IMG/VR virus record: IMGVR_UViG_3300035670_001111
Location: 1 to 26,302 of that record
Direction: 5' to 3' (one strand)
Source: a virus
DNA length: 26,302 bases
The position numbers and the translations under genes are program-made. Of this stretch, positions 19 through 17,302 are shown piece by piece. A model generated the notes under the pieces. It made no database searches, was not told where the DNA came from, and worked only from the letters and a program-made list of their open reading frames with translations. How positions within the stretch are numbered: position 1 is the stretch's first letter; every line of letters starts with the position of its first letter.

Positions 19-426
19 TTACAAACACTCATCCAACCATTCTTGTGGAATTTCTTTTTTTGACCACAACCAACCCCGTTTCTCACAGAATTGGGCATAG
101 GTTGTTTTACTTCCTTTGTAGAGTTTTGCGTTTGGATTCTGAAAGACAAACCTAATATCTATGTTTGGATATTGGTTGAATATCAGTTCCATCTTTTCTC
201 TATCGGCTTTTACCCAACGTCCTTTTGTTTCCAAGTACATTGTTCCACCCTTTTTCTTTTGTAGAACAAAGTCGGGTGTGTAGGTGTGGTTTGTGGCTGG
301 TTTCACATATGAAAGTTTCTCGGTTTCGTAACTGTACTTTTTCTTGGATTCTTTGAGTAGTTCATTTGTAACATCCTCCAATCCTGATTTGAAACCATGT
401 TTTATCGCAACTGCATTTCTTTTCAT
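19..426 (-). CDS. T7 gp3-type endonuclease I (Holliday junction resolvase)
   Basis: This 135-residue protein matches the phage T7 endonuclease I family, which cuts branched DNA such as Holliday junctions and helps resolve replicating phage DNA before packaging. The family landmarks appear in order: GFKSGLED near residues 11-18, PATNHTYTPDF near 43-53, LETKGRW near 65-71, DIRFVF and KLYKGS, then FCEK. The catalytic set expected from T7 (Glu, Asp, Glu, Lys) is intact as E17, D52, E66 and K68. Length is close to the T7 enzyme (about 149 residues). The ATG has a good ribosome site (AGAGGT, 4 nt before the start) and lies 12 nt after the stop of the preceding structural gene. It is the only nucleic-acid enzyme in a block of virion genes. 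T4 itself uses an unrelated resolvase, endonuclease VII. Confidence 0.93.
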   Translation of the reverse strand: MKRNAVAIKHGFKSGLEDVTNELLKESKKKYSYETEKLSYVKPATNHTYTPDFVLQKKKGGTMYLETKGRWVKADREKMELIFNQYPNIDIRFVFQNPNAKLYKGSKTTYAQFCEKRGWLWSKKEIPQEWLDECL

Positions 427-438
427 TAGTACCTCTGA

Positions 439-2199
439 TCAGACATCAAATCTAATTATAACGTTCATATCTACATCATCTCTTTTAGCAAGTGGTGATG
501 CCAATTTTCCAATAGCAACCAAATCATACTTTTCGTTGTAAAGTCCGATTGTAGTAATATATGGATTGAAGAATGAACTCGTTACATAATCATCAACCAG
601 TTGAGACGAAACATCTTTATCCTGCCTTACAGTCCAATTTTGAGTGAAATTGAACTCGTTCTTTCTCAATTTACAAGTGACTTCGTGTTCATAAAACGTA
701 GTTGTTGATCTGAATGAACCAGTAAATCCATACTGAATCCCGTTATAATCGTAGTTTCCATTTTCACCCAAGAACACATTTGCATATTTTGGTCTTGGGT
801 CAGAAACTACAATCATACCTGATCTATAAAAAACGTTTCCTATACGTGGAGTTTGGTACGCATACCCTGTTTCAAAACTATTGTCACCAAGATAGGTTAT
901 GTTTTCAGTAGTCAATCCTCTCTTGTAAATTCTGATTTCATCAAGATAACCGGAGAAATTACCCTGAGATGTTCCATTGCTTCCTATGAAAAATCTGTTT
1001 TCGTTTGCAGTACTCTGTGTTATTGAACCCGTTACTTGTCCTTGAAGAACTCCATTCACCCAAACTTGATAATAACTTGCACTCTTTTGACAAACTATGT
1101 GATTCCACATGGAATGTGAAATCATACTTGATGTAACAGAGAACATAGAATTACCAGACTTTTGTGAAAATTCTATTCTGTGCTTGTAGTTTTCTCCGGC
1201 CGTTTGATTATAGAGTTTTACATCAAATGGGTAATTTGATGCATTATTTGCATTTGAGTCATATTGTGTGTTCTCAATTCCAGATACTCTTTTTGTTTGA
1301 TTATCTCGAACAAGTATGTCCTTCACTGTTTTTTTATCAAATAGCTGATTATAAGTCAACTGAAGATTCGACTGTGTTGGGGGTATATTTACCCAAAAAC
1401 TAAGTGCAAAACTCGTTTTACCACTGAAGTTGAAGTTATTTGCACTTTTTACTTCGTAATAACCACCGTCAATGTATGCCGATGTCCCTGTTGACTGAGA
1501 TGTATTTGTTACATAAATTCCAGGTAGGTATGAGATATTCTTCGTATTGTATGACTCTATCTCATTTGATATTGGAGAACCATCCATTACAAATTGAGTT
1601 GGTTTATTTCTAAAGTTATACTCTCGATACTTTTCGTTGAAACCTACATACAGGTACAAGTTATCCGTTCCAACTATTTTTGTTTGATCAAAATCAGTAT
1701 CAATCAAGTTACCCTTTCCATCATCTTGCATAGAGACTTGTTTATTTGCAATAGTGTGAAAACTGGTAAAACTAACAGAGTTTCTACGGATACCTTCACC
1801 AAAAACACCCTGTGGCAGTACCATAACAGAACTTGATTCTGCAAGATATGTTACTCTATCATAGTCGGTGATGACATTAGGAATTTTGTCTTTTGTGTAT
1901 TCCGTATAGAAGTTGTGATCTAAATAATACCAAAGCATTTTAGGATCAACACTTTGAGAGGTAAAAACTCTTTCGTAGAGTGAAGATGAAAGATTTGCAA
2001 TACCACCGTAGTACTTATGATTCTCAGGATATAGTGCCCTATAAACGTTTATTCCAAATCTACCGTAGTATGTTACGGCGTCGTTTACATCAGATGAAAC
2101 TTCCCACAACTTGTAAACCTCAAAAGGACGAACTGTGTAATCTCCTTTTTTGAGTTTTTTCCAAATAAGACTTATTGTATTTCCAGTTTGAAATGACAT
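439..2199 (-). CDS. Virion structural protein E: LamG domain inserted in a conserved phage baseplate/fibre protein
   Basis: This 586-residue protein is the last member of the five-gene paralogous series. Residues 1-160 look like a conserved virion N-terminal part, with VYKLWEVSSDVNDAV and a later LPQGVFGEGIRR segment ending at DDGKGNL. A LamG/concanavalin-like lectin domain follows at about 235-440, recognised by ALSFWVN, WNHIV, a VWVNG strand, FFIGSNG and YLDEIRIYKR. The conserved part resumes with GNVFYRSGMIVVSD and GFTGSFRSTTTFYE. It ends with the family signature NPYITTIGLYNEKYDLVAIGKL. The start lies one base after the stop of the previous gene, with no clear ribosome site, so translation is probably coupled. 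A role in outer baseplate or receptor contact is inferred from the LamG fold and the neighbours. It could instead be a fibre attachment protein. Confidence 0.8.
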   Translation of the reverse strand: MSFQTGNTISLIWKKLKKGDYTVRPFEVYKLWEVSSDVNDAVTYYGRFGINVYRALYPENHKYYGGIANLSSSLYERVFTSQSVDPKMLWYYLDHNFYTEYTKDKIPNVITDYDRVTYLAESSSVMVLPQGVFGEGIRRNSVSFTSFHTIANKQVSMQDDGKGNLIDTDFDQTKIVGTDNLYLYVGFNEKYREYNFRNKPTQFVMDGSPISNEIESYNTKNISYLPGIYVTNTSQSTGTSAYIDGGYYEVKSANNFNFSGKTSFALSFWVNIPPTQSNLQLTYNQLFDKKTVKDILVRDNQTKRVSGIENTQYDSNANNASNYPFDVKLYNQTAGENYKHRIEFSQKSGNSMFSVTSSMISHSMWNHIVCQKSASYYQVWVNGVLQGQVTGSITQSTANENRFFIGSNGTSQGNFSGYLDEIRIYKRGLTTENITYLGDNSFETGYAYQTPRIGNVFYRSGMIVVSDPRPKYANVFLGENGNYDYNGIQYGFTGSFRSTTTFYEHEVTCKLRKNEFNFTQNWTVRQDKDVSSQLVDDYVTSSFFNPYITTIGLYNEKYDLVAIGKLASPLAKRDDVDMNVIIRFDV

Positions 2200-2200
2200 A

Positions 2201-4633
2201 TTAGTTCAATCTTAGTACTACTTCAAATATAATTACTTTGCCGTCATTCTTTCGAATCGGATTTCTTAGTTTACCGATAGCCAATAATTCTTTTTCTCTG
2301 TTGTATAGACCAACAGTTGTTATGTATGACTGTGGATCTTTTGAGAAGTAATCATACTTCAAAAAATTACCACTACCAGATGTATAAGTATAATTAGTGG
2401 ACGTGTTGAACTCGTTGAAGTCTGCCCTACAAAAATAGGTTTCAGTCAAAAATGTTTCAAACGATCTTGCAAAAAACGAACCACTTGGACGATATGCATT
2501 TGGTACAGCCGCACCACTTATAGCCAAGAAAAGTCTATTAGAATTTTGACCATCAGTCGAACTAGTCACCGTGCTGAATGAACATGATTGATCTAATACT
2601 ACACCATCTAAGATTATGAGACCCATTTTTGGAAATACTATTCCCCAAGCGTCATCTGTGGGCTCATTGTAAACCCCATCACGTAATGATCCAGACGTAA
2701 CATAGTAATATTCCTGTATGCCTTCATCAGTAACTACTTCTTGTTTTGTATCTTTACTTTCATCTATCAACGTAAAAAATCTAGTAGATGTTGGTGATGT
2801 CTCTGTTCCACCGGATGTAAGTTCACATAAAGCCAATTCAAAATTACCAGCGTCTAATTTTTCTTTGTATTGATTTCGATCAAGTTGAATTACATAGAAG
2901 TAATCACCATTTTTCCCATTCTTGAACGGAAACTTTCCGTTTGTGTGACCAAAACATTCTAACATATACTTACGATACATGGCTTTTGCAGGATATAAGT
3001 CTACTTCATTTTCAATAAGACTAGAACCTGAGCCAGATATATGACAATATGTTATGTCAAACTGATGATATGATTCATCTGTATATTGTTTTTCGTTGAA
3101 TACCGTGAGGTAGTACTTACTTTGTTTGGTAGTCAGTGATCCAGTATAAAATGTTGATAGCTTTTCACCTGTACATCTAAATAACCCGTTTGTCTTGTAT
3201 CTAAGTATGGGAAGTGAATAATCAGATACCTTTGAAACTTTTTTGAATACATAAGTACTATTATCATCAATAGTCAAGTCATCTATCAACTCATCAATGT
3301 AAGAATCAAATATGTCTAAATTTCTCTTATCGTCAACCGCCTTAGATACTAAATCGGGAGGTAAAACATTTACTCGTGGTAATATGATGATATTTCCGTT
3401 TTCATCTATCGACCAACGTTCAGATTCTCTTTCAGGTATATCTACATCTTCTATGATACAAATTTGTTCATATAGATAGTTCTTTACAAACTCATTTAGT
3501 TTTATCTGAACGAGTGCGTTGAATTTTGCAGTCTTATCTGAAAGGAATGGGTCATTTATAATAGTCGTTGCATTTTGTATCTTATATAATACACCATTCA
3601 ATTCAGAATTGAATTGGTCTATATTCGATATGGTGAAACTGGCCTTGTTTAGAGTAAATAAGTCCAAAGCACGTTTTGCCGCTAACTCATTCTCGTTGTT
3701 TGTTGGCAATGAAAATACCGCAACAAATTCTGGTTTTGCAGGTAGAACTGATATTTTTGGTTCACCGTCTACTGTAAGATCGATGCCAAATGGTTCTGTA
3801 GTTGTACTGACTACACGCTGACCGGTCGTTGTATCTAATTCCAATGGAGTGCCAAGAACCATTTGAGATAAGTCGATCAAATCAAACTTATTCATACCAA
3901 CTGTAGAATTTACAGAGGTTGTCTGATATGGAGGTGTATCTATACCTTGGTTTTGTAGAGTATTTACCGTTTCGACTAGTGTAAATCTATTCCCACCAAA
4001 TACTCTGATAAGATTTGAAAGTTCTTTAGGACTTACGGGTATTACAAACTCAACGTAAACGGCGGTATCTTCAAAACTGTTTGAATACCGAATGTCCATC
4101 TCATCTGATGTATCAAAATTCCAACCGGATTGAATTGGTAATTTACTATATGTAATATTCTTTGGTTGTTTTTTGTTGAATCTATAAAGGACAGTTCTAC
4201 TCTTCAAGAAAGAGGAGTCCACTCTCATCTGAACTAGATAATCTTCTATCACATCCGAGGATAACTTACCGACTTCAAATGAAAAATCGGAATCTACCAA
4301 GTTCTCGTTTAGTCTAACTAAATCTAAATCAGTTTCGTCTGTAAAGTAAAGTTTAGTCCGTCCACCCGTATAGAAACGCCGTTGGTTAGCCAGTCTAAGT
4401 CGAATGTCTTCTCGTTCTTGTTGAGAAAGTCCAATCACAGATGTTGATAAAATAGGAGTTGGTGCATCTATTGGAGGTTGTACTAAATTTGGAGTTACAG
4501 TCCCCCCTAACGATTGGCCGTCAACAAGTAAACGAACCTCGAATGTTTTACCAACATTCTTTGGTGAATCTGTTTTACCCCTCCATAGAGATCCAATAAA
4601 TCCTAACTCTCTGATTTCATATACGGATGCCAT
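2201..4633 (-). CDS. Virion structural protein D: paralogous C-terminal module with long unique N-terminus
   Basis: This is an 810-residue protein. About residues 473-810 form the shared module of the A-E series: GLF near its start, DAGNFELALCEL, FFTLIDES, VTSGSLRDGVYN, WGIVFPKMGLIILDG, SFSTVTSS, TYFCRADFNEFN and finally YITTVGLYNREKELLAIGKL. Residues 1-472 are unlike the other copies and I do not recognise them. They contain a Pro-rich stretch near 51-60, a predicted mostly beta region, and an acidic helical part near 430-460 (DIFDSYIDELIDDLTIDD). The ATG follows the upstream stop by one base and lacks a Shine-Dalgarno match, which suggests coupled translation. It is probably a baseplate or tail-fibre component; the exact role is unknown. 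Confidence 0.75.
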   Translation of the reverse strand: MASVYEIRELGFIGSLWRGKTDSPKNVGKTFEVRLLVDGQSLGGTVTPNLVQPPIDAPTPILSTSVIGLSQQEREDIRLRLANQRRFYTGGRTKLYFTDETDLDLVRLNENLVDSDFSFEVGKLSSDVIEDYLVQMRVDSSFLKSRTVLYRFNKKQPKNITYSKLPIQSGWNFDTSDEMDIRYSNSFEDTAVYVEFVIPVSPKELSNLIRVFGGNRFTLVETVNTLQNQGIDTPPYQTTSVNSTVGMNKFDLIDLSQMVLGTPLELDTTTGQRVVSTTTEPFGIDLTVDGEPKISVLPAKPEFVAVFSLPTNNENELAAKRALDLFTLNKASFTISNIDQFNSELNGVLYKIQNATTIINDPFLSDKTAKFNALVQIKLNEFVKNYLYEQICIIEDVDIPERESERWSIDENGNIIILPRVNVLPPDLVSKAVDDKRNLDIFDSYIDELIDDLTIDDNSTYVFKKVSKVSDYSLPILRYKTNGLFRCTGEKLSTFYTGSLTTKQSKYYLTVFNEKQYTDESYHQFDITYCHISGSGSSLIENEVDLYPAKAMYRKYMLECFGHTNGKFPFKNGKNGDYFYVIQLDRNQYKEKLDAGNFELALCELTSGGTETSPTSTRFFTLIDESKDTKQEVVTDEGIQEYYYVTSGSLRDGVYNEPTDDAWGIVFPKMGLIILDGVVLDQSCSFSTVTSSTDGQNSNRLFLAISGAAVPNAYRPSGSFFARSFETFLTETYFCRADFNEFNTSTNYTYTSGSGNFLKYDYFSKDPQSYITTVGLYNREKELLAIGKLRNPIRKNDGKVIIFEVVLRLN

Positions 4634-4634
4634 A

Positions 4635-7175
4635 TTACCAATTTAGTCTGATTTTTACAAGAACATCATTATCGAAAGACTTGTTTATTGGTTTGCTCAG
4701 TTTGGCTACAGCAAGAAGCTCGTTGAAATCGTTGTAGAGTCCAATACTTGTTATGTATGTTTGTGGATTTTTTTCAAAACATGGGTGGAAGAAAGCACCT
4801 TCACTACCACTAACATATGTTGGATTGCTACTATAATTTGCCAGTGATGAAGCAACTCTTACAAAGAAATGATTTGTTGTCTTATACTTGACATTTCTGG
4901 CTTTCATATATGAACCAATCACTCCAGAACCACTTATAGATGTGAATAACTTGAAAGCATTATCACCAGCAACGTTACTACCGGTAACGGTATTGAATGA
5001 AAGCTCACTATTCAACTTATAAGGATCAAGTACCATTATTCCAAGATTAGGATAGACAATACCATATGTGTGGAGGGAATTCGATGTATAAATTCCGTCG
5101 TTTAAACTTCCACTTACGATAGCATAAGAAACGTATGGATCATGAGCACATGATATTGTATCTGATCTATCATCTGAATCATCAATGAACGTGAGTACTT
5201 TATTTGATGCAGACACTTGGACGTTACTACCGGTAAACACATTATTTGCATAATCACCACCATTCAACTCGGCAAGTGAAATTTCAAAATTTCCCGGATC
5301 AATTCTATCACTCATACCGGTTCTTGAGAAGTTTATGACATAAACATCTTTTGACGAGGTAGCTACACCATTTGTGTAGAAAGTAAATTCAGTATCTGGT
5401 AAGTCTAATGCAAGTAATCTATATTGAGAATAAATGGCACGTGTTGGGGTATCATTTAGTTCACCCACTGACCAAACAGACCCTGAGCCACGGTTATGTC
5501 CATAAGCGACTGCAAAGTACGGAGTTCTTCCACATGAATCACAATCAGTTACTTCGTAATAATGTGTTTTTGATGCCGTTGCTTGAGTTGAACTTGTATG
5601 ATGACACTCTAATGTTTGCGATCCGTCAAATAATCCTTTTGTTTTTGCACGAACTTTTGCAGTCATCACATCACGTCCTAAATCTAATGGGTGATAGATT
5701 TTTACAGTTTCAGGTGAACAATCTGCATCTTGTTTACGATAATATCTTACAAAAACACCGGTAGCCACAAGCTCTTGACGACCATCCTCATATATTCGTG
5801 TTACGTCTTTCTTGATTATTCCAAAACATCTATCTGAAGGATCATCCTCTTCGTATTCTCTGACCACTTCTCTGTATCCACAGTTTGGATCAGGAATTTC
5901 ATTTATGTATTCTGTAAATGTTCCACGTGATACTGGATAAAGTTCAATTCCGTTTTCAGCTGGAATGTAGTTTATTATGTTTCCAGAAAAATCCGAGTTA
6001 GCATAAACGGGAAATCCGTATTCTACTTGCCAAATTTGAATGTCCTCATATGAGACAGGTATGGCAAGAACACATGATTTATTAGGATGTTTTACTCTAG
6101 GTGTAGTTTCTGGATCTACAACTTGAAGTTGTCTCTTTTCTGTTTGATCTGTTGGTCTTCTTGTTCCAGGAATTTCAACTCGGTTCCTTCTGTCAACAAA
6201 TGGACCAGACTGTGTTACGGGTGGTGGAGCAACTACTCTTGGAGTAAATGTTACGTTAGAAAGACAGAAATCTGGTTGTTTTGATAAATCACATTTTCTT
6301 GCCAAATCATCTGCAATCTCATTTATAGTTCCAGTTGGTGTTCTAAATCCTGGAGCAGCTGATGTTGTAACACTCAATAAGTTGTTTAGAATTGCAGTCA
6401 TATCAAATTGACTGAACTCTCTTATTACTGCGTTACTACTACCAGGACGTGGTGTGGTTGAAACCGAGCCAATTATTCCTTCTCCTAAATCCGGTCTATC
6501 AACTAGTTTAGGAAGAAAAGTTTGAGCAGTTGCAAATGAACCAAATCCTTGAATAGTTGAAATCAAAGATTCTTTTGTAAGTCTTCTACCTGTTATTCTT
6601 CTTGTTCCAACTACACCGTTCTGAACAAAGTTAGTATCTGTTTCGTCCACATCTGAACCAGAGGCTGTAATATCAAGATACCCCATAAGTTCAGGAGCAT
6701 ACGATAGACTCGCGCCACTTCTAACAGCCAATATGTTTGGAGGTGAGAAACACGTTCTATACACGGGTAGGACAATTCTACAACCAGGTTCATTTGGTAT
6801 CCTTGAAAATTCAGGACAACCGAATGAGTATCTATAATCACACTCAGGTTCGTTATTTCTTCTGACCGGTGGTGGTGGTGCAACTGGCGGTGGAATAACA
6901 CCACCTGTTATATCAATACCACCAATTGGTGTATCGGTCAATAAACTACCTTGATCAAATACTCCGGTACCAACATTTGCACCAGTTGGGTCTACAAACG
7001 GTGGCGATGTAATATCGAACTCAAACCGTTGAACCGCTGTTGATATTGCATTTGTCAGAGACTGAGCATTAGCAGCAAGTTGGGCAGTTTGGGCAACCAA
7101 ATTTGCTTTGTTCGGATCATTATCCGGTATTCTACTCAGTTGCTGCGATAAATTACTTATAGTTGTAGTTGCCAT
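4635..7175 (-). CDS. Virion structural protein C: shared module plus Pro/Cys-rich N-terminal extension
   Basis: This 846-residue protein carries the shared A-E module at about 505-846: HYYEVTDCDSC, DTPTRAIYSQYRLL, DPGNFEISLAELNGG, FTGSNV, FIDDS, LFTSISGSG, and the ending YITSIGLYNDFNELLAVAKL. The first 500 residues are unique in the window. They hold a Gln/Ala-rich helix (1-50), a Pro-rich linker (94-104), a second Pro-rich spot (316-319), and scattered cysteines near 112, 120, 132, 142, 295, 304, 368, 432, 450 and 486. The module is much closer to that of protein A than to that of neighbour B. The start is 8 nt after the stop of B, with only a weak AAGAT-like ribosome site. It is presumably part of the baseplate periphery or fibre network. 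The cysteines could form disulfides or bind metal; this is not established. Confidence 0.75.
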   Translation of the reverse strand: MATTTISNLSQQLSRIPDNDPNKANLVAQTAQLAANAQSLTNAISTAVQRFEFDITSPPFVDPTGANVGTGVFDQGSLLTDTPIGGIDITGGVIPPPVAPPPPVRRNNEPECDYRYSFGCPEFSRIPNEPGCRIVLPVYRTCFSPPNILAVRSGASLSYAPELMGYLDITASGSDVDETDTNFVQNGVVGTRRITGRRLTKESLISTIQGFGSFATAQTFLPKLVDRPDLGEGIIGSVSTTPRPGSSNAVIREFSQFDMTAILNNLLSVTTSAAPGFRTPTGTINEIADDLARKCDLSKQPDFCLSNVTFTPRVVAPPPVTQSGPFVDRRNRVEIPGTRRPTDQTEKRQLQVVDPETTPRVKHPNKSCVLAIPVSYEDIQIWQVEYGFPVYANSDFSGNIINYIPAENGIELYPVSRGTFTEYINEIPDPNCGYREVVREYEEDDPSDRCFGIIKKDVTRIYEDGRQELVATGVFVRYYRKQDADCSPETVKIYHPLDLGRDVMTAKVRAKTKGLFDGSQTLECHHTSSTQATASKTHYYEVTDCDSCGRTPYFAVAYGHNRGSGSVWSVGELNDTPTRAIYSQYRLLALDLPDTEFTFYTNGVATSSKDVYVINFSRTGMSDRIDPGNFEISLAELNGGDYANNVFTGSNVQVSASNKVLTFIDDSDDRSDTISCAHDPYVSYAIVSGSLNDGIYTSNSLHTYGIVYPNLGIMVLDPYKLNSELSFNTVTGSNVAGDNAFKLFTSISGSGVIGSYMKARNVKYKTTNHFFVRVASSLANYSSNPTYVSGSEGAFFHPCFEKNPQTYITSIGLYNDFNELLAVAKLSKPINKSFDNDVLVKIRLNW

Positions 7176-7183
7176 ATTTTATC

Positions 7184-8248
7184 TTAGTAATCTAGTTTAA
7201 CTTTTATTACCAGCTCTCGGTCAAATGACTTTTTGACTGGTTTACTTAATTTTGCCACCGCCAATAATTCCTGATTATCATCATACAGACCAACCGTTGT
7301 TATGTAAACCTGTGGATCTGTTACCATCGAATCGTACTTTAGAACTCCAGTACTAGAACTTACAAATGAGTTGTTTGTTGAGTAGTTATACTCACCATTG
7401 AACATACGTACAAAATAATAGGTTGAAGAGAAAACCTCACTCGTTCTTCCTTGAAAGGCATAATCAGAACTGGCAGCCATGGCACCACTTATGGATGTAA
7501 ACAACGTCAACGCATTATCATATCCACTTGCAGTAGCCGGTACTCTTTGTGTATTGAAAGAAGCCGATGCATCAAGTGCCTGTCCATTCAATACGATTAC
7601 ACCTCTATCTGGATAGAAAAGTCCCCATGGCGTTGTATCTTGTGTATAAATACCATCTGAAATAGAACCACTTCTAACATTGAATACACGACCACCTTGT
7701 TGTGCTAACTCAGTTGTTGTTGTAGTTGAATCATCTATGAGTGTAATATACTCATCATTAGAGCCAGATAATGTTAGTTGCCATGTTTTGGTATCAACTC
7801 TATCTTTGAATCTTGCCCTGTTTATATTGATTACATAGATATAATCTGAAGATTCGTTGTTTCTAAATGTAAATGTATTATCACCCGCATTCAAAAGCAT
7901 TTGTTTATATTGTGCATATACCGCTTTTGTTGGATAATCATACAGGTTTTGTGCACCTGAACCAGTTGCAGAACCACTACCTACCAAATCACCATACGCA
8001 ACACTAAACTGTGATTCAGCTCCTTGAAGATTGGATTGACTATTGAATAGTTCATAATAGTATCGTTTCTGATTTACAGATTGAGCAGAACTCGTAAATA
8101 CGGCTGTCAACGAGGCACGACTATTCGACCACAATGGAGCTGAAACGACTTCTTTTTGATTAGGAGAAATATCTATATCGTCTACAAATGGGGTAAACGT
8201 CTTTCCATTTCTCAAACTTTTCCGTAGTAAAATATCTGCCTGTGTCAT
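7184..8248 (-). CDS. Virion structural protein B: compact member of the paralogous series
   Basis: This 354-residue protein consists almost entirely of the shared module. It starts with a short unique leader of about 38 residues, then LWSN and VFTSS, KRYYYELFN, FSVAYGD, YPTKAVYAQYKQML, YVININRARFKDRVD, YITLIDDS, VRSGSISDGIY, WGLFYPDRGVIVLNG, SASFNTQ, LFTSISGA, YYFVRMFNGEYNYSTN and YITTVGLYDDNQELLAVAKL. It lacks the GNFE-ELNGG stretch seen in A and C, so it is the more diverged of the three short-module copies. The start is 5 nt after the stop of gene A, with no recognisable ribosome site. No enzyme motif is visible. A virion, probably baseplate-associated, role is inferred from the locus. Confidence 0.75.
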   Translation of the reverse strand: MTQADILLRKSLRNGKTFTPFVDDIDISPNQKEVVSAPLWSNSRASLTAVFTSSAQSVNQKRYYYELFNSQSNLQGAESQFSVAYGDLVGSGSATGSGAQNLYDYPTKAVYAQYKQMLLNAGDNTFTFRNNESSDYIYVININRARFKDRVDTKTWQLTLSGSNDEYITLIDDSTTTTTELAQQGGRVFNVRSGSISDGIYTQDTTPWGLFYPDRGVIVLNGQALDASASFNTQRVPATASGYDNALTLFTSISGAMAASSDYAFQGRTSEVFSSTYYFVRMFNGEYNYSTNNSFVSSSTGVLKYDSMVTDPQVYITTVGLYDDNQELLAVAKLSKPVKKSFDRELVIKVKLDY

Positions 8249-8253
8249 AATGT

Positions 8254-9354
8254 TTAGTACTCAAGTTTTACAGTAATTGATAACTCACTATTGAAAGACT
8301 TCTGAAGTGGTTTGCTCAATTTGGCAACCGCCAGTAAGTCACCACCAACTCTATCATAAAGACCAATGGATGTTATGTAAGTAACAGGTTCATTTGAGAA
8401 TCGTGTATTGTTTATGAACCCATCTCCACTACCAGTAACATATGTTGGATTAGTTGAATAGTTGTATTTTGAATTGTCTATTCTAATGAAGTAGAAATCT
8501 TGTTGCTTTACGTCTACAGCTCTTGCAGTAAATCCAGCTGATCTTGCACCCGAACCACTTATCGATGTAAAGAGTTTATAGGCATTATCACCGTTTATAT
8601 TACTTCCAGTAACAGTATTGAAAGAAGCTGAAATATTCAATACATCTGCCGATATGATAATCGTTCCCACATCCGCATATACAAGTCCATAATAGTGAGG
8701 AGCCGATGGATTGTGAATTCCATTTGCCAAACTTCCACTTACTAAGTTTCTAACAGGAGACGGAACACCATTATAGCCAAGACTATCACTTTGATCGGCG
8801 GAATCGTCAATCAGAGTAATAATGTTATCTGAGGATGAAACTTCAACATTACTTCCTGTAAAAACAGAGTTTGCAAATCCTCCACCATTTAGCTCTGCAA
8901 TAGAAAGTTCAAAGTTACCCGGATCGAGTTTATCTCCAACTCTACTTCTATTGAAATTTATAGCATAAAAATGAGAAAAGGCTGTACTGTTAGTATCTCC
9001 TAATGTAAAGAGTCTTTGATCTTGCTCTAAACACAACAACCTGTACTGTGAGTAAATTGCCCTAGAAGGTGTGTCAGACTGTTCTCCACCTTGAGATAAA
9101 GATCCAGAACCAGCTGCATTACCGTAAGTGACTGAAAAAATCTGTGCATCCTCACAGTCTAATGAAGCCGAACTCCAAACTTCGTAGTAGTATTCACGAG
9201 AAGATGTATTTTGTAAAGAGCTGGTGAAGAATGTAAATAATTCACCGGTTCCGTTTGACCAAAGTCCTCGTGTTTCAATCACCTTTTCTGGTGTCAAGAT
9301 TTCTCTACCAACAGAGTCGAGTGGTCTTGCAACAGGGCTAAAAATTCTTGACAT
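8254..9354 (-). CDS. Virion structural protein A: first member of the paralogous series
   Basis: This 366-residue protein is the first translated member of the A-E family and, like B, is nearly all shared module. Landmarks are RGLWSNG and FFTSS (residues about 29-46), REYYYEVW, FSVTYGNAAGSGS, DTPSRAIYSQYRLL, LDPGNFELSIAELNGG, VFTGSNVEVS, LIDDS, LVSGSLANGIHN, ASFNTVTGSN, LFTSISGSG, FYFIRIDNSKYNYSTN, and the ending YITSIGLYDRVGGDLLAVAKL. Repeated SGSG and TGSN loops give it a beta-rich, fibre-like character. It has an ordinary ribosome site (AGGA, 8 nt before the ATG), unlike the four genes after it, so it may set the translation rate for the series. Its function beyond being a virion component is unknown. 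Confidence 0.75.
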   Translation of the reverse strand: MSRIFSPVARPLDSVGREILTPEKVIETRGLWSNGTGELFTFFTSSLQNTSSREYYYEVWSSASLDCEDAQIFSVTYGNAAGSGSLSQGGEQSDTPSRAIYSQYRLLCLEQDQRLFTLGDTNSTAFSHFYAINFNRSRVGDKLDPGNFELSIAELNGGGFANSVFTGSNVEVSSSDNIITLIDDSADQSDSLGYNGVPSPVRNLVSGSLANGIHNPSAPHYYGLVYADVGTIIISADVLNISASFNTVTGSNINGDNAYKLFTSISGSGARSAGFTARAVDVKQQDFYFIRIDNSKYNYSTNPTYVTGSGDGFINNTRFSNEPVTYITSIGLYDRVGGDLLAVAKLSKPLQKSFNSELSITVKLEY

Positions 9355-9383
9355 AATTTGTTCCTATATCATGTATTATACAA

Positions 9384-10064
9384 TTACGCCGGTCTACTTA
9401 GTGGATTCACTGTTACTGGGATAACGATTCTTCCACCTGTTTCATTGGCAGTTACAATAATTTTAGTTGACTTCGAACTTCCTAAATTCGTAGCTCTTGC
9501 ACTTGGATATGCCTTGAATGTCAATCCTATAACTGACATTGAATTTGCAGTCTCCGAATCACCGTTCATATTTGTAATAGGTGATGTAGATATTGTTGCT
9601 CTAGTAACATACTCCAATGTAACGTATGTACTATCAAGAACTGTAGCCGTATATCCTAATGTTGCATTTAGTCCCGAAGCAGCAATTCCTGTTCCATTGA
9701 AATTCGTCTGTGGAATGATATTTGCATTTTCAGGAATTGTTCCTTCTGTAAGTACAAGAGGATTTTGAGTTGTAAGTGTAACATAAGGAATTGCAGTTGT
9801 TCCCTTTGGTAAGGTAATCAACTTGTATTTCATAGATTGTGTTTCATCCGGAACTGCCTCTGTAACCGGCATATTTTCAATAACTACACCGTAGTAGTCA
9901 GAACCGAGTGGATGAGCAGGGTTCCATAAATCGTAATCTACTTCATCGTCCGCCAAAGCGAATTGTGTAATTTTGAATTGGCTTTGTCCCTTAGCTAAAA
10001 GTTCTCTTCCCTTTTTAGTAAGGATAGCATCCACTGTAATCGAGGTATTGTCTAAATAACCCAT
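9384..10064 (-). CDS. Conserved virion structural protein, 226 residues
   Basis: The N-terminus (MGYLDNTSITVDAILTKKGR, then ELLAKG, FALADDEVDYDLWN and DYYGVVIENMPV) is a pattern I recognise from conserved structural proteins of T4-like and related phages, so it is probably a real virion protein; T4 has no obvious counterpart. The first about 100 residues look like a compact attachment domain. The rest is Thr/Val-rich and beta-stranded and ends in an Ig-like run (SKSTKIIVTANETGG then RIVIPVTVNP). The gene has the strongest Shine-Dalgarno in the left half (AGGAG, 8 nt from the ATG) and follows the largest intergenic gap in the window. Both suggest it is made in higher amounts than its neighbours. 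It may link the wedge section to the A-E series; that is inference. Confidence 0.8.
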   Translation of the reverse strand: MGYLDNTSITVDAILTKKGRELLAKGQSQFKITQFALADDEVDYDLWNPAHPLGSDYYGVVIENMPVTEAVPDETQSMKYKLITLPKGTTAIPYVTLTTQNPLVLTEGTIPENANIIPQTNFNGTGIAASGLNATLGYTATVLDSTYVTLEYVTRATISTSPITNMNGDSETANSMSVIGLTFKAYPSARATNLGSSKSTKIIVTANETGGRIVIPVTVNPLSRPA

Positions 10065-10125
10065 GTTAGTTACTCCTTTTGAATATATTGTTACTCATAT
10101 AAATATACACATTCTTGATTTTCTA
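10065..10125 (-). promoter_or_regulatory. 61-bp intergenic gap, possible promoter/leader of the 226-residue protein gene
   Basis: This is the largest non-coding gap in the window and it is very AT-rich. Read on the minus strand it has the run TATATTTATAT, about 40 nt before the ATG, then AATATATT and the strong ribosome site AGGAG. The TATATT could serve as a -10 element, but I see no convincing -35 partner. The T4 late consensus TATAAATA occurs only on the opposite strand (10098-10105). The region could also be a plain spacer. The short self-complementary ATAT-TT-ATAT is too weak to call a terminator. Confidence 0.25.
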
Positions 10126-13100
10126 TTAGATTCCACTGTTACCTGAGTATTGATTTATGTTTATCTGATTTGGATCTACGATAAATAACTCGATAACCGG
10201 CTTACCATCTGGTGTACTTCTTGTATCAACATTTATATCTGGTCCAGTTAGTTTTGAACCTTCAAATCTGTGATTTCGTATAGAGTTTGTCAAACTGTTT
10301 GGATTTTCAAAACTACTACCTGTCACATACTCAAATGAGGAATAAGTACGATGTGCAATATCTCTACTACTTGTATAGTAGAACTTGTATCCACTATAAT
10401 AACTATCAGTTCTATAAGTTTGATACGTTGTAAATAGTGCTAAAGCCTTACCAGTATCGGAAGAAATTGGTTTCCAATTAGTACCATACCCAACATCCGG
10501 ACTGGATGGCGAATATTCAACATTTGTTCGTGTCTCTGTTTCTGAAAACTTGGTATCAAAGATAGCAAATACATTTGAAAAACCGGTTCCCATTCCTGAC
10601 GAAATAGATCCAAGCACTCTACCAAAATTAGCTCTAGCGATAGAGGTAAAGTATTGAGTATATTCTGATATAAAAGAACCCGTATTTACTTGTATAATTG
10701 CTCTATGCGGTTTGAATATTTCTTTTTTGAAGTTTGCAAAATTTCCACGTGAACTTGATATGGTCATCCTGTACTGTTTTGCGTAGCCGATTGGTGTTAT
10801 TATTGGATCAAAATCACCGGCAACATTTAGATCAGTAGATGCTTCAAATTCTAATGGATTTTCTATTTCAGTTTCCAATTCTTGATAGGAGCTTTCGTTC
10901 TCAAATCCAATCATGATAGTGGATTTGTTTGAAGATACAGAAGCAAACGGTGTACCGGAAGATGAAATCTCATTCGTTCTTCTAACCGTTTTTTCAGGAG
11001 AATCTCCACTTATACCACGTATAGCTCTTACTTTTGATCTTTCAAGAACATTAGGCTCAATAACGATTCCAAGAATCTCATTTACACGTGCCGGAATCAT
11101 TTGACGTATTTGATCAAACACACTAAAATCGAATATTGAAATCAGATTTATGTAGGCAGTAAAGTCATTTTTGTTTGGATATTTTTGCCAATACTCTCTC
11201 GAAAACTGTTTTAGTCTTGGATATTCTTCTTTGTTTATATTCGAATATTCTCCAAAGTAGTCATCGATGGTTGTATAACCTATTGCCTCGTATATGTCCT
11301 CATTTATAACAGACTGTGGTGAAAAGGCAATCATAAGTTTGTTGGAGTCAACCGAAAACTTATCAAACCTAGATACTACAACTGATTGATCTTTTGATAG
11401 ACCACCAAGCAAAGAACCAGAATCATTTCGTACCTTTTGAGAAAACGGAGTATTGTTTCCTACGGTAGCAACCTCCATATTATACGTCTCAGTTATTGAC
11501 TCAAACGATTCGGATGTGAAGTTGTAAAATGTAGCAACCTTAGGTGAAGTGGCAAATGAACTCTTTGTTTGATCTGGATGTGAACTGATCAAACTTGACG
11601 TTGCCGCAACGTCAAATGGTTGCCAGAACTTCCACTGTGCCTGTAGTTCATAAAATGAGGAAGTTGGTGTATTTCCATTATAAGCTCTTGGTGCAAGAAC
11701 ATGGTTATTGAAAGAAGATTCCTTGAGTTGATTTACCCAATATCTCAGTTCATAAACCGAACCAGATAATATGTTATCTGTTTGTATATTTGAACCTGAA
11801 CCGATGTATAGTGTACCATTCGATGCCCATGATTGGTTGTAACTGCCACTGTCACTTCCACTAACAATAATACTACCCGATCTCTCTATTACAAGTTTAC
11901 CGTACTTACCTGTCTTTACAAAGAAACTGTAAATCTGATTTGAAGATGTATTATCTGTACTATATTCTCGGCGAATCATTAGATTCAAAGGAACATCATC
12001 GTAGAAATAATCATCGTAAATAGAAGCAGAGGTGTAGTTTGTTCCATCACCTAACCAAAATGCAACACTACCTTTGCCAACATCGGTTCCAGAATTTTTG
12101 TCCATTGTTACAAACCAACCAACACTACCACCACTTTCTTTTTGTAATAAAGTCTGTGTTGAATTTCCAGTGTATTTGTAGGCAAATTCAGGTTCCATTT
12201 TCCAACGGAATGTCACTGTATCTGGATATTGATTTGTGTTATTTACCGTAGTCACTTCTTCCCACGGTACATAGATATATCTGTTTGTTGTTGGTGTAGG
12301 TAAACTACCAAAGAAGTTGAAATAGTAAGTATGCTTTTCCCACTCAGTTCTTGGTATTATACCGAGGTCTGCATTATCTGGTCCACCAAACTCTCTAATA
12401 GATAAAAGAGTCTGTGGAATACCATATGCAGCTAATAGTGCCCGTATACCTCTTGCAGTTCCTTTTGTCTTGTAGATGTATGGAAGATTGTTTAGAATAC
12501 GTCTCCAAACTTCTTTTGTTCTTTCTTCATATGTCTTAGATAGATCACGTCTTACACTTGTTTTTCCTGTCCAAATTGGATCTCCACTTCCACTTACACC
12601 AAGTGCATATTCCCATAGGTCTTTTGCAGAAGTTCCATGTGTGAGCGTCCATCCCATGTTCCTCGTTATTTCATATACCAAATCCTGTGATGCACCATCT
12701 TTTGGATTTTCTCTCCTTAGATTTTTTTTGAGTATATGATCCGTGTATAAGTAAAGAACATCAAAGTGTTGACCCAACATATTTACGAAAGATATTGCAG
12801 CTGAGTTATCTACATCTTCTGATATAAAGTCCGGAACAGCTTTTACCAAGGCATTGTAATTTTTAGCATCATATTCTCTGGCTTGTTCTAATAGATCATT
12901 ACCCCAATCAAGTACAATACTTGATGATATGGATTGAAAATTGAACTTACCTTCTTTTGTAACCAAATCAAAGTTACTAGCAGTAACGTCTAATTCAATT
13001 TTAGGAAACGGTTTTATTGATGAACTAATTTGATATGTGTAGTTTATACTACCCGTAGAAGATTGGTATAGATACTTCTCAAAACCGTCAAATCCATTTA

Positions 13101-14151
13101 TCAACGTGTCACGAAGTCTACGAACCTTTATCAGATTAGGACTCGTTACAGATGCAGAATAATTTTGTAGTATAGCTAACTCGGTTCTGTAGTTTTCAAG
13201 TAGGCCCATTTTGAAAATAAAGTTATCTACTCGTTCTTCTGCATTAGAGTAATAGATAAAGTTTCTAAATTCACCGTAATCTATGTTCAATGTTACAGGT
13301 GAAGCCGAAGACGATATATACCGACTTAGAATTTGTTCTGAGGTTTGGATATTCTCTGAAAGAATTTCAGACCATGACTTGTAATTTGTTTCGGAGACTA
13401 CCCAATAATCATAATCTACTTCAAAGTTAGGACCAGATATGAAATTAGGTTCTACCTGTATTTGTTCTGCAACATATGTTACCGTGTCTATGTACGGTTG
13501 CAACAGTCTTACCGATACCCAGCAGTACGTATATATGTCTATATCGTTCGCTAATGGTTCATAAAGCTTTGCATAAAAAGAAGTTGGATCACCAACCGAC
13601 GTGATATTGATAATGTCAAATATGACATTTGAACCAAAATTCAGAATTATCGGTGGTACATATTTCTTTGGCTTTAGATTTTCTAAAACAAAGGATGCTA
13701 ATTTTGTTTTACCATCAGATGAATCTGGATTCGTAAGTGATAGTTTTATTTCAGTTCTATCTTCAGATATTTCTGATATGAATAGTTTATCTTTTGAATC
13801 AAACGACCCAATGTAGTCTTTATGGAAATTGTAAACTACTTTGTATGTGTTAGCGGGTAAAAGTAAGTTACGTATATCAGAGTGGACATCTAATGCAAAC
13901 TCAGGAGCTTTTCTTTCTCCAAACGTTTCCAACAAGTATCCTGTTTTTACATTGTGTTCCGATTTTTGATATACCAAATTTGACAAAAACACATGAAGTT
14001 CTTGTCTAAATGAGGAATCATTTACATCGAGTTGTGGTATTACAGCAGCTTTCTCTAACAAACTAAGTTGTTCAGTAGCTATTGTTTGACCAAAAACAGG
14101 AGTATTGGTTCTATTGATTTCTTTTATATTTTTGTAATTGAAATTTGACAT
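10126..14151 (-). CDS. Very large baseplate protein with gpI-like segment and LamG-like domain
   Basis: This 1341-residue protein is probably a major baseplate wedge or periphery component. About residues 540-590 (EERTKEVWRRILNNLPYIY, then KTKGTARGIRALLAAYGIP) resemble the P2 gpI/Mu-type tail protein segment. A concanavalin/LamG-like beta-sandwich follows at about 640-840 (TVTFRWKMEPE, LNLMIRREY, LYIGSGSN, VYELRYWV). Near 1015-1045 lies FDQIRQMIPARVNEILGIVI followed by EPNVLERSK, a segment I recognise from large structural proteins of many phages. The C-terminal 300 residues are Ser/Tyr/Thr-rich. It starts 14 nt after the stop of the coiled-coil gene, behind a modest GGGA ribosome site. T4 gp7 (1032 residues) sits at a comparable place after gp6, so it may be a functional counterpart, but I see no clear gp7 similarity. 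Confidence 0.8.
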   Translation of the reverse strand: MSNFNYKNIKEINRTNTPVFGQTIATEQLSLLEKAAVIPQLDVNDSSFRQELHVFLSNLVYQKSEHNVKTGYLLETFGERKAPEFALDVHSDIRNLLLPANTYKVVYNFHKDYIGSFDSKDKLFISEISEDRTEIKLSLTNPDSSDGKTKLASFVLENLKPKKYVPPIILNFGSNVIFDIINITSVGDPTSFYAKLYEPLANDIDIYTYCWVSVRLLQPYIDTVTYVAEQIQVEPNFISGPNFEVDYDYWVVSETNYKSWSEILSENIQTSEQILSRYISSSASPVTLNIDYGEFRNFIYYSNAEERVDNFIFKMGLLENYRTELAILQNYSASVTSPNLIKVRRLRDTLINGFDGFEKYLYQSSTGSINYTYQISSSIKPFPKIELDVTASNFDLVTKEGKFNFQSISSSIVLDWGNDLLEQAREYDAKNYNALVKAVPDFISEDVDNSAAISFVNMLGQHFDVLYLYTDHILKKNLRRENPKDGASQDLVYEITRNMGWTLTHGTSAKDLWEYALGVSGSGDPIWTGKTSVRRDLSKTYEERTKEVWRRILNNLPYIYKTKGTARGIRALLAAYGIPQTLLSIREFGGPDNADLGIIPRTEWEKHTYYFNFFGSLPTPTTNRYIYVPWEEVTTVNNTNQYPDTVTFRWKMEPEFAYKYTGNSTQTLLQKESGGSVGWFVTMDKNSGTDVGKGSVAFWLGDGTNYTSASIYDDYFYDDVPLNLMIRREYSTDNTSSNQIYSFFVKTGKYGKLVIERSGSIIVSGSDSGSYNQSWASNGTLYIGSGSNIQTDNILSGSVYELRYWVNQLKESSFNNHVLAPRAYNGNTPTSSFYELQAQWKFWQPFDVAATSSLISSHPDQTKSSFATSPKVATFYNFTSESFESITETYNMEVATVGNNTPFSQKVRNDSGSLLGGLSKDQSVVVSRFDKFSVDSNKLMIAFSPQSVINEDIYEAIGYTTIDDYFGEYSNINKEEYPRLKQFSREYWQKYPNKNDFTAYINLISIFDFSVFDQIRQMIPARVNEILGIVIEPNVLERSKVRAIRGISGDSPEKTVRRTNEISSSGTPFASVSSNKSTIMIGFENESSYQELETEIENPLEFEASTDLNVAGDFDPIITPIGYAKQYRMTISSSRGNFANFKKEIFKPHRAIIQVNTGSFISEYTQYFTSIARANFGRVLGSISSGMGTGFSNVFAIFDTKFSETETRTNVEYSPSSPDVGYGTNWKPISSDTGKALALFTTYQTYRTDSYYSGYKFYYTSSRDIAHRTYSSFEYVTGSSFENPNSLTNSIRNHRFEGSKLTGPDINVDTRSTPDGKPVIELFIVDPNQININQYSGNSGI
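11632..12234 (-). other. LamG/concanavalin-like domain within the 1341-residue protein
   Basis: These bases encode about residues 640-840. Beta-strand spacing and the motifs TVTFRWKM, VAFWLGDGTN, LNLMIRREY, GTLYIGSGS and VYELRYWVNQ fit the two-sheet lectin fold seen in LamG-like domains, which often bind carbohydrate. No binding residues can be assigned by reading alone. Confidence 0.55.
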
Positions 14152-14165
14152 TAGAATTCCCGATC

Positions 14166-16133
14166 TTATTGTCCTCTTATACTTCCACCACTTCCACCAC
14201 CACGACTACCACCACTTCCAGTTGTTGATGCTGATGTCAACCCTAGATCCGTCAAAAATTTCCATATTTTATCTAATAGTCTATCGTCTGTGTTTGGTAT
14301 AGATATTTTTCTTATTTCACTAACGATTTGTTCTCTAAATGATTTGACCTTACTGGTATCTGGCTCTGAAAAAGCACCTTTGAATTCATCTCTAACTGTG
14401 AGAACAGATTCAGTTGAAAAAGTTGTTCCATTGAATTCTTTGAAGATTTTTGAAATCTCACGTAAACTTTCAAGTTGTAGAGAGTTTCGTTCTATTCTGT
14501 TTCGACTGACTATTGAAAGTATTTCTGCTACTCTCAGTCGTTCTTCTCGTTCTGTTAAGAAATCATTGTTTGGTGTATTCGCCCCAGCCCCACTTCCACT
14601 ACTTGTAGTTGTAGAAATCAGACCAGCTTCTTTCAGATCAACCCAAATGGTGGATACTTTATCAACATTAGTTCTATTGTATTTCAGATCTTTCACTTCA
14701 TTTGAAATTCTCTGTTTAGTCTCACGTACTATTTTCAATTGTTCTTGATCAGTTATGTAACTTGAACCTTCTACAGCCTCACCCAAATCAAGAATAATTC
14801 CTAATGTATCTCTAACAAGTCTTAGAGTGAAAATTGTTATTTTTGGATTTCTAATGGCATCAACAGATTGTTGTCTTCGGTTGTTGAATTCAGTTTCGGT
14901 TATAGGTAATGGACTTTCTGATTCATTTGAACCCCCACCTGTTTGATTATTAGTTGAACCACCACCACTTCCTGTATTAGTTCCATTTGATCCACTTACC
15001 TGTGATGATTGTAGGGCAGCAGCTATAGCTCCGATACCATCCTTGAATGCATCAAGTTGAGCCTTTGCCTGTTCTTCTGCTCGTTTAGCCTGTTCTTCAA
15101 GTTTCGATGAGAGTGAATCGAAGGCATCGGCTGCATTTTCAATTTGTGAAGTTACAGATGTACCGAGATCGGTCAAGGTCGAATCTATTGTTTCATTCAA
15201 TGTAATTATCTGTGAATCTTTTACCTCTACCTCGGCAACTTTTGCATTGAACTCTACTGATAACTGTTCTATAGCTTCTAAAAGATTATCGTTAGTGTCT
15301 GTTAGATTTTGTTGAACCTCTTCCGCCTCATTCAATTGCAATTGTAATTTTTCTATCTTCGTTTCCAAAGCGGGTACACTTGTAGAATCTTCATTGATCA
15401 GTCTTTTCAACTTTTCCAAGAAAACAGCTTCATCTGCACTTACATTTATATCTGTGGCCCATTCTTCTGCCTTTTCTAAGACATAACGTTCAGCATCTAC
15501 GGCTTCTGGTATACTAGTAAACGTTTTATCTACAACGTAATCAAAACTTCTTGGCATATATCTTTCAGTTGTGGTATCAAATGAAACAAATCCTCTGTTC
15601 TTCAGGTAATTCTTGAAAGAAACTATTTTACCAGTCGAGTCTCTTTCAACCGGAACCGTGGGGTCTAAGTTTACCTCTGTGTTTCGTCTGTTTTGTTCAT
15701 CCAGTATTGCCTTCAGATTCTCAGACGGTAAGACTCCATTCTCGTTTCCTGTTAGTATTTTCCTAACAATAAATCCAAAGAACGGATCCAATTCTTCTTT
15801 TGTGAGTGAATCGAACTCATTTTTTGCAACTTCAATTTTACCTACCTGAACTGCCTCTTCTATCAATTTTTCTCGAACGATATACTTTTTTACGTAATCG
15901 TAATCTGTTGATGATTTGAAATTTTTCAGTCTTTCCAATAGTACCTGAGTATCATCAGTTGCTATAACTGATTCTGTGACATTCTTGATAACAAGTCGAA
16001 CACCTTGACTTTCGAAAAAGTCTCTAAACTCTTGACTTGTATCAAACGAAAGATTACCATAAATACCAATCAGAGATTCTGCCTGTGATTGTTCTACATT
16101 TTCCAAAAACAAAAAGTCTTCAATTCGTATCAT
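14166..16133 (-). CDS. Coiled-coil virion protein with duplicated C-terminal domain and Ser/Gly linkers
   Basis: I do not recognise this 655-residue protein as a named family. Residues 1-245 are mixed helical. About 250-375 form a long coiled coil (ETKIEKLQLQLNEAEEV, later LEEQAKRAEEQAKAQLDAF). A Gly/Ser/Thr/Asn linker (379-404) leads to two related helical domains, about 409-506 and 524-633. Each begins with an ITE/LTE segment, carries an arginine/lysine-rich helix, and closes with a Trp-containing DK-W helix (DKVSTIWVDLKEAGL versus DKIWKFLTDLGL). Each is followed by another Ser/Gly tail (507-520 and 636-652). The start overlaps the preceding stop by 4 bases (ATGA), with AAGG upstream. Its place between the DNRLRE-like and 1341-residue baseplate genes suggests a baseplate part, perhaps a rod-and-hinge connector. 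Confidence 0.75.
   Translation of the reverse strand: MIRIEDFLFLENVEQSQAESLIGIYGNLSFDTSQEFRDFFESQGVRLVIKNVTESVIATDDTQVLLERLKNFKSSTDYDYVKKYIVREKLIEEAVQVGKIEVAKNEFDSLTKEELDPFFGFIVRKILTGNENGVLPSENLKAILDEQNRRNTEVNLDPTVPVERDSTGKIVSFKNYLKNRGFVSFDTTTERYMPRSFDYVVDKTFTSIPEAVDAERYVLEKAEEWATDINVSADEAVFLEKLKRLINEDSTSVPALETKIEKLQLQLNEAEEVQQNLTDTNDNLLEAIEQLSVEFNAKVAEVEVKDSQIITLNETIDSTLTDLGTSVTSQIENAADAFDSLSSKLEEQAKRAEEQAKAQLDAFKDGIGAIAAALQSSQVSGSNGTNTGSGGGSTNNQTGGGSNESESPLPITETEFNNRRQQSVDAIRNPKITIFTLRLVRDTLGIILDLGEAVEGSSYITDQEQLKIVRETKQRISNEVKDLKYNRTNVDKVSTIWVDLKEAGLISTTTSSGSGAGANTPNNDFLTEREERLRVAEILSIVSRNRIERNSLQLESLREISKIFKEFNGTTFSTESVLTVRDEFKGAFSEPDTSKVKSFREQIVSEIRKISIPNTDDRLLDKIWKFLTDLGLTSASTTGSGGSRGGGSGGSIRGQ
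14178..14228 (-). repeat. Low-complexity Gly/Ser codon run at the C-terminus
   Basis: The plus strand shows a CCACCACTTCC-type repetitive run that encodes the flexible Gly/Ser/Arg tail (about residues 636-652) of the 655-residue protein. It is an in-frame linker, not an independent DNA element. Confidence 0.7.
14922..14999 (-). repeat. Low-complexity Gly/Ser/Asn linker codons
   Basis: This encodes about residues 379-404 of the 655-residue protein (SGSNGTNTGSGGGSTNN and onward), joining the coiled coil to the duplicated domains. It is likely a flexible hinge. Confidence 0.7.
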
Positions 16134-17302
16134 CTAGAAACCTTGAAGTAATAATTGTTGTCAAATATTTTACTAACGTCACCACCATCTGTTTCTGATT
16201 TTATCAATACTCTGTAAAATCTTTCTGGTTGAAATGAATTCATCCACAATTTGAAATAATTACCATTACTGTCACAACTAATTTTAGAACCAGTTTCATC
16301 AAATCTTATGATTATTTCATCAGTATGTGCATCTCGTATTTCATAATACGACGAAGTTGGTAAGTAAAAATTACGTGTATAGTATGATTCCGTTGTGTAA
16401 GTCTTTGTTGGATACTTTTCATTTACATTTATTCTTATCTTTGTCTTTTCTTTTTCAGAATATGTTTGATTCAATTGAAGATTTACAACTGAATTATCAA
16501 ATGGTATCTGAGTCAGACTTCCCGTAGAAAATACTGAGTCATCCCAAACGACGTGGAGTCTTGGAACATATATGGTGTTACTATCTGTTGAAAAGAATTT
16601 CAAACTAACAAGTGTTTGATTCGATGACTCTATCTCATTTGAAAACTTTAGGATGAAACCTTCATTATCAAATCTACCGGAACCAGTTATCCATTTGTTA
16701 ACAATTGATGTGACATCCATGTAAATATCGCCCGTTTCAAATGAAAATGACTGTGTACATTCAGCACCATCCCAAGTCCACCAAGTACCACCACCAACGG
16801 TTGAAAAATAAGAACCCGTTACGGATGCATATAGTGCTCCAAATATGAGATCGGCATCTACCCACGACTCGGATATTTCGTCCCATTCGTAATTCAAACC
16901 ACCAGTTACTTCGGTAACTCCCCACAAATTATTGAGTGCCTTTGATGATCTGTATTTCCAAGAAACTCCATCAGTAGTTGCAGGATTGTTTGCAAATTTT
17001 CCAGTTCCATTTGTCCAAGAACCACTTACAGGATACGCATATACTGTATATTCTTGTGGTATCTCTCTGACATCTGATGCTCTTAGTTGTAGATAGTATT
17101 TTGCATCCGCAGATATTTTTCCGGCATTTACATCAGATTCTATACTTGATACATCGAACTTCAGAAGTACTCGACTGTTGTATTTTGAAGCACTACCAAT
17201 CAATTCATGTGATAATTCCAAAACAGAATCTGTTCCGGTATTCAGAGATTCTGTTTTTTCGTAAATAGTAGCATCAAATTTTGGATATATTGTGTATATC
17301 AT
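16130..17302 (-). CDS. DNRLRE-like beta-sandwich virion protein
   Basis: This 390-residue protein begins with the pattern of DNRLRE-type carbohydrate-binding-like modules: YPKFDATIYEK, a short linker, then SRVLLKFDVSSI and YLQLRASDV, and YTVYAYPVSGSW followed by aromatic-rich loops (WKYRSSKALNNLWG, GGGTWWTWDG). FETGDIYMDVTSIVNKW also fits this fold, ending near residue 245. The remaining about 145 residues are beta-rich and may be a second domain (RINVNEKYPTKTY, YYEIRDA, RFYRVLIKSETDGG). Both ends overlap neighbours by 4 bases (ATGA), so it is translationally coupled between gp6 and the coiled-coil protein. The location implies a baseplate protein, possibly a glycan-contacting one; no catalytic motif is seen. 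Confidence 0.7.
   Translation of the reverse strand: MIYTIYPKFDATIYEKTESLNTGTDSVLELSHELIGSASKYNSRVLLKFDVSSIESDVNAGKISADAKYYLQLRASDVREIPQEYTVYAYPVSGSWTNGTGKFANNPATTDGVSWKYRSSKALNNLWGVTEVTGGLNYEWDEISESWVDADLIFGALYASVTGSYFSTVGGGTWWTWDGAECTQSFSFETGDIYMDVTSIVNKWITGSGRFDNEGFILKFSNEIESSNQTLVSLKFFSTDSNTIYVPRLHVVWDDSVFSTGSLTQIPFDNSVVNLQLNQTYSEKEKTKIRINVNEKYPTKTYTTESYYTRNFYLPTSSYYEIRDAHTDEIIIRFDETGSKISCDSNGNYFKLWMNSFQPERFYRVLIKSETDGGDVSKIFDNNYYFKVSR

Follow-up and report, generated by a model that had tools for sequence, protein, structure and literature searches.

Shared docking domains are known on several receptor-binding proteins, for example on the branched tailspikes of CBA120. T4 gp8, A511 gp105 and Milano gp125/gp127 are tail-fibre or baseplate-peripheral proteins, and in Milano paralogous beads connect the fibres (PMC10811340), a mechanism close to the docking-module reading developed here. 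In T4, gp9-gp12 are encoded by adjacent outer-baseplate genes, with domains shared between gp9 and gp10, and in P2 the tail fibre gpH begins with an N-terminal domain (PF12571, Phage_tail_fib). For the uncultivated Far-T4 group, RM378 has served as the sequenced relative in discussion, in a study in which baseplates and paralogues go unmentioned (PMC4360716).

The present analysis concerns a 26.3-kb fragment of a virus record (the whole of this stretch is called the window) on which every plausible gene lies on the minus strand. The window is a contractile-tail baseplate cluster, with gp25- and gp6-like genes, and ends in five consecutive genes, A-E, followed by a nuclease gene. We argue, with moderate confidence, that A-E are peripheral baseplate proteins docked via a common C-terminal module, which in C and D would bear variable tips and in E a lectin-like domain.

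Results

Five paralogues with a common C-terminal module

The five intact ORFs occupy positions 439-9354 and are separated by gaps of 1-8 nt (Table 1). The initial annotation, made from the letters alone, had described them as paralogues ending in one shared module with different N-terminal additions, and its terminal signature was found in each of A-E. By BLASTP, A-D have in common a C-terminal module of about 340 residues, with 35-48% identity over 320-372 residues (within the window: A-C 48% over 361 aa, 3e-99; A-B 38% over 372, 8e-67; B-C 37%, 1e-57; B-D 35%, 1e-53; A-D 35%, 7e-50; C-D 35%, 7e-44). The module is thus shared as proposed, but the short motifs listed for it vary more than was said, C having FIDDS and D having LIDES in place of LIDDS, and D also AISG in place of SISG. 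A and B are indeed module-only paralogues, and the roughly 470-500 extra unique residues ascribed to C and D amount to 500 and 466 residues before the module, the two extensions having no similarity to each other detectable by BLASTP. The question of whether the likeness is confined to the last 40 residues can be answered: it reaches further, clearly so for A-D by BLASTP and by profile for E, since the alignment of 67 module relatives with 52 E relatives covers 125 columns (hhalign, E 6.6e-20).

The picture drawn of E, a module with an added LamG, has to be revised. E forms a paralogue of its own, present as a single copy and possessing a conserved N-terminal part that is peculiar to it. As had been noticed, E retains only the terminal part of the module, namely its last ~125-150 residues; in BLASTP its match is 152 aa long with D (4e-9) and 39-92 aa long with A, B and C. 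Its LamG (PF13385) passes the curated cut-off of 27.6 with 52.5 bits, recurs in 48 of the 52 E relatives and is therefore an old part of E, not a local insertion. When the E profile was searched against PDB sequences, the matches were mostly LamG-type lectin domains.

Table 1. Positions of the features discussed, in the window unless a locus is named
Feature	Position	Strand	Characteristics
A, 366 aa, module-only	8254-9354	-	module about 8254-9306; orthologue group A in tree
B, 354 aa, module-only	7184-8248	-	module about 7184-8173
C, 846 aa	4635-7175	-	module 4635-5675; variable N-terminal extension 5676-7175
D, 810 aa	2201-4633	-	module 2201-3235; variable N-terminal extension 3236-4633
E, 586 aa	439-2199	-	own N-terminal part; LamG about 898-1452; shared C-terminal domain about 439-846
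Nuclease gene 3' of E	19-426	-	phrog_945-type endonuclease
X226, 226 aa, conserved companion	9384-10064	-	residues 13-41 (9942-10028) match first half of PF12571
1341-aa protein, T4 gp7 place	10126-14151	-	gene position; PF09684 only E 0.2
655-aa coiled-coil protein	14166-16133	-	~45% conserved among close relatives
390-aa baseplate-cluster protein	16130-17302	-	family consensus scores as CBM96 (PF24517, 4.8e-8, above cut-off)
Baseplate J / gp6-like wedge protein	17299-19206	-	phrog_6 7e-19, phrog_10646 8e-17
gp25-like baseplate protein	19206-19700	-	PF04965 1.4e-8, above cut-off
1368-aa protein	20153-24259	-	M15-peptidase-like motif SSNHAAGRAIDFF; long coiled coil
ORF between C and D, other loci	L015 14759-15163; L016 14520-15023; L017 8798-9238; L018 14621-15064; L026 7277-7708		134-167 aa

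Constant module and variable extensions

Measured against the five relatives closest to the window, mean identity was 0.78-0.90 in the modules of C and D (0.80-0.90 for C), versus 0.15-0.46 for the first ~450 residues of C and 0.14-0.61 for those of D; the design of a constant module with a variable remainder, suggested from the single sequence, is thereby borne out. Divergence at fourfold sites is similar in the module and in the extension of C/D, which places the contrast in protein constraint; synonymous sites being near saturation, domain swapping and faster evolution of the extensions are not separable. The extensions have no BLASTP similarity beyond the closest relatives, and family scans returned no match to a known fibre, spike or depolymerase family. 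At the other extreme, B is the most conserved of the five (68.5% identity to the copy of Microcystis phage Mel-JY01), its last residues being invariant in six sequences. In another relative, L008, an RCC1-type beta-propeller is inserted at module position ~107. Taken together, conserved modules with variable remainders, this insert and the old LamG of E suggest that the module behaves as a constant platform carrying exchangeable outer parts.

Further observations were made on L008: in both of two tandem module proteins (8330-13194) an insert of ~400 aa interrupts the module at position ~107, the beta-propeller belonging to the first of them (8330-10711), and a third module copy lies ~30 kb away on the same contig.

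The variability of the C and D extensions is as would be expected of receptor-binding parts, a role that we argue from variability and context since the extensions match no known fibre, spike or depolymerase family. One might instead propose that the module itself binds the host, with extensions acting as spacers or enzymes and several modules providing several specificities. The modules are paralogous and mutually divergent (35-48%), as this would have it, but each orthologous module is strongly conserved, B most of all, and it is the extensions that vary. Receptor-binding parts usually show the reverse of such conservation, and we regard host binding by the module as highly improbable.

Distribution and history of the family

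At least 589 IMG/VR stretches encode relatives of the module, which also occurs on six bacterial MAG contigs (presumably viral sequence) and in Mel-JY01, Flavobacterium Immutovirus, an uncultured 484-kb phage and Rhodothermus phage RM378. The window is itself a fragment without a capsid gene, and the T4 gp23-type major capsid family (PF07068) was scored in relatives, where it lies above cut-off in 7 of 7 (Mel-JY01, Immutovirus, RM378 and four long IMG/VR records). Module-bearing phages are thus T4-like, and the relatives are akin to RM378 and to the Far-T4 group. The search for the same array in related phages, which had been recommended, found the five genes in the same order in Mel-JY01 (PP395634, WWT39513-WWT39517) and a reduced two-gene form in Immutovirus (gp106-gp105), annotated in both merely as hypothetical proteins.

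Copy number was counted in 98 loci, some of them cut by contig ends: two module-bearing genes were present in 66 loci, five in 13, one in 12, three in 6 and four in 1, and five relatives of 111-145 kb have two each. The usual pair consists of one module protein, preceded by X226, and one E-like protein after it. Five copies are a trait of one clade, Mel-JY01 included, and two are the norm of the family. In a tree of 88 modules the orthologues of A, B, C and D fall into groups supported at 100 (the A and B groups including rows from partial loci), which implies that the array had become fixed by the time its clade radiated. The repeated duplication that had been postulated is visible in these four orthologue groups and in the separate duplications of other lineages (L023/L050/L075, L028, L087 and L008), where several extra copies also carry long N-terminal parts. 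In a sub-clade with very long C extensions, an ORF of no known family stands between C and D (Table 1); it could be a candidate fibre chaperone.

Gene order and the baseplate context

In the direction of transcription, the gene in the place of gp5 is followed by those for the 1368-aa, gp25-like, gp6-like, 390-aa, coiled-coil and gp7-place proteins and for X226, after which come A, B, C, D, E and the endonuclease (phrog_945). The baseplate reading of A-E rests on this position after the gp25-like, gp6-like and gp7-place genes and on the conservation of their neighbours, X226 immediately preceding the first module gene in 90 of 92 loci and an E-like gene adjoining a module gene downstream in 75 of 79. 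The location of A-E is a matter of inference and all are hypothetical proteins in Mel-JY01, which leaves room for the view that they act in assembly or tail completion, or decorate another part of the tail, with no attachment to the baseplate. Against this, order and adjacency with baseplate genes are kept across Immutovirus, LR756508 and most loci, and the A-E C-terminus resembles a tail-fibre attachment domain (see below); we deem a site away from the baseplate very unlikely.

Several of the neighbouring genes deserve a comment. The family consensus of the gp7-place protein contains a LamG-like stretch (PF13385, 1.7e-4), and the CBM96-scoring 390-aa protein is a second sugar-binding candidate within the cluster. 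The coiled-coil protein (~45%) is much less conserved than this neighbour (~77%) among close relatives. For the 1368-aa protein PF13539 reached only E 0.2, and no relative was found across the loci examined, most of which end before that region. The nuclease gene 3' of E is swapped, being of phrog_945 type in the window and a GIY-YIG nuclease in Mel-JY01 (L009 21447-21959).

Comparison with gp8-type connectors

Homology of the module with T4 gp8, plausible by eye and by gene order, was tried and rejected, as it failed the profile tests with both the 6-row and the 85-row gp8 alignments (P 0.19-0.45 in every comparison). With A511 gp105, profile comparison gave P 0.29-0.54. None of PF09215 (gp8), PF25691 (BW3TFN) and PF07880 (gp9/gp10) was found over cut-off in seven relatives, the controls being positive in T4 for gp8, in A511 for BW3TFN (231 bits) and in T4 for both gp9 and gp10.

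These results bear on a proposal in which the module is a diverged connector of the T4 gp8 or BW3TFN type, whose paralogue dimers link fibres to the baseplate in a ring or garland, as modelled on A511 and Milano, each paralogue filling a different bead. The place after the gp7-place gene, the similar size (334 vs ~350 aa), the location of the conserved part at the C-terminus and the precedent of paralogous gp8-fold proteins in Milano (PMC10811340) all speak for such a connector, and the best local alignment with gp8 pairs the two C-termini. That alignment changed after column pruning, however, and the P values and missing PF09215 and PF25691 matches given above weigh against the proposal, which we consider rather unlikely.

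Similarity of A-E and X226 to segments of the P2 fibre domain

The module has no convincing match in Pfam, PHROGs or PDB: scans of 67 modules against Pfam and PHROGs gave nothing coherent except weak tail-fibre-family matches at one spot, and the PDB sequence search with the module profile stayed at chance level. That spot recurs in the consensus sequences as weak matches to three tail-fibre PHROGs (1162, 4618 and 381). A profile of 206 C-termini compared with that of the P2-type fibre N-terminal domain scored 39.6 (P 2.6e-6), versus a mean of 11.8 and a maximum of 19.4 when the columns were shuffled 60 times. Taken separately, the module profile (P 1.7e-4) and the E profile (P 3.3e-5) gave matches at the corresponding site of the PF12571-type profile. 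Nothing comparable or significant came from T4 gp6-gp12, P2 gpI and gpJ or three A511 proteins set against the C-terminal profiles. The match spans 22-40 columns of a domain of ~150 residues. Run over the relatives' whole genomes, the PF12571 model gave only two matches, both sub-threshold (11.4-11.7 bits, positions 87-115), which fall on the C-termini of one E-like protein and of the Mel-JY01 D; the gathering score (23 bits, ~150-position model) is reached by no A-E relative. On profile evidence, part of the last ~45 residues of A-E is related to the P2 segment IGLYDxxGxLIAVA, and this lends indirect support to the reading of the module as a docking domain.

The N-terminus of X226 aligns with another segment of the P2 domain, ITTxG...ITxxAVGDG, in its first half (P 3.2e-6). 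With the halves of the domain separated, hhalign gave P 1.6e-7 for X226 against the first and P 3.2e-6 for the module against the second, and the complementary halves went undetected in X226 and the module (P 0.59 and 0.058). Either X226 and the module would together form a split P2-type domain, or each would hold a complete but strongly diverged one. It is tempting to picture a split socket, in which the fibre-docking domain has its first half in X226 and its second in each of A-E; one common baseplate socket protein could then be completed by any plug protein, giving a mixed outer baseplate, and a single fibre-docking domain would have been turned into a multi-part platform. We nevertheless hold this particular arrangement to be unlikely.

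Discussion

The modular reading first given to A-E is largely right, the corrections concerning E, the copy number and the abundance of the family. What we propose about virion location, docking and receptor binding is inferred from homology, variability and gene place. A-E would sit at the baseplate periphery of a T4-like phage, in whose relatives no T4 gp8, gp9 or gp10 can be recognised, and every one of them would carry the same C-terminal docking domain. The module would serve to anchor them on the baseplate, probably close to X226 and the protein in the gp7 place. A and B may be plain platform subunits, whereas in C and D the same platform would carry variable N-terminal parts that point outward as receptor-binding tips, and E would present its lectin-like LamG domain outward for adsorption. 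As to their origin, an ancestral module gene would have been duplicated, its copies then being fused to N-terminal parts that diverged rapidly. The resulting picture would be one of interchangeable attachments fitted to a single type of socket at the phage tail tip.

The literature searched contained no description of the shared module and its family, of the C-terminal docking arrangement or of the X226 partner, and neither a paper on Mel-JY01 nor one on virion proteomics of Immutovirus. The family is widespread in aquatic phages, with no counterpart in Pfam or PHROGs. In a large and almost uncultured group of T4-like phages it points to the probable host-contact machinery, shows which parts of this machinery differ between close relatives, and provides a rule by which likely receptor-binding proteins can be picked out: one looks between X226 and an E-like gene for a conserved module that bears a variable N-terminal extension.

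Among described systems, T4 gp8, A511 gp105 and Milano gp125/gp127 would work in a similar manner; the Milano connectors are paralogous, as are A-E, and T4 gp8 is encoded after gp7, as here, the difference being that gp8/BW3TFN connectors have no significant sequence or profile match to the module. T4 gp9-gp12 resemble A-E as adjacent outer-baseplate genes with domain sharing between gp9 and gp10, but PF07880 is absent from the relatives and the sharing is here C-terminal and extends across five proteins. The P2 fibre gpH aligns with the A-E signature, but in another architecture: in P2 a single N-terminal domain ahead of the fibre contains both segments, whereas here they are split over two neighbouring proteins, and the segment that is N-terminal in the P2 fibre stands at the extreme C-terminus of the ~340-aa modules, with the additional parts placed N-terminally.
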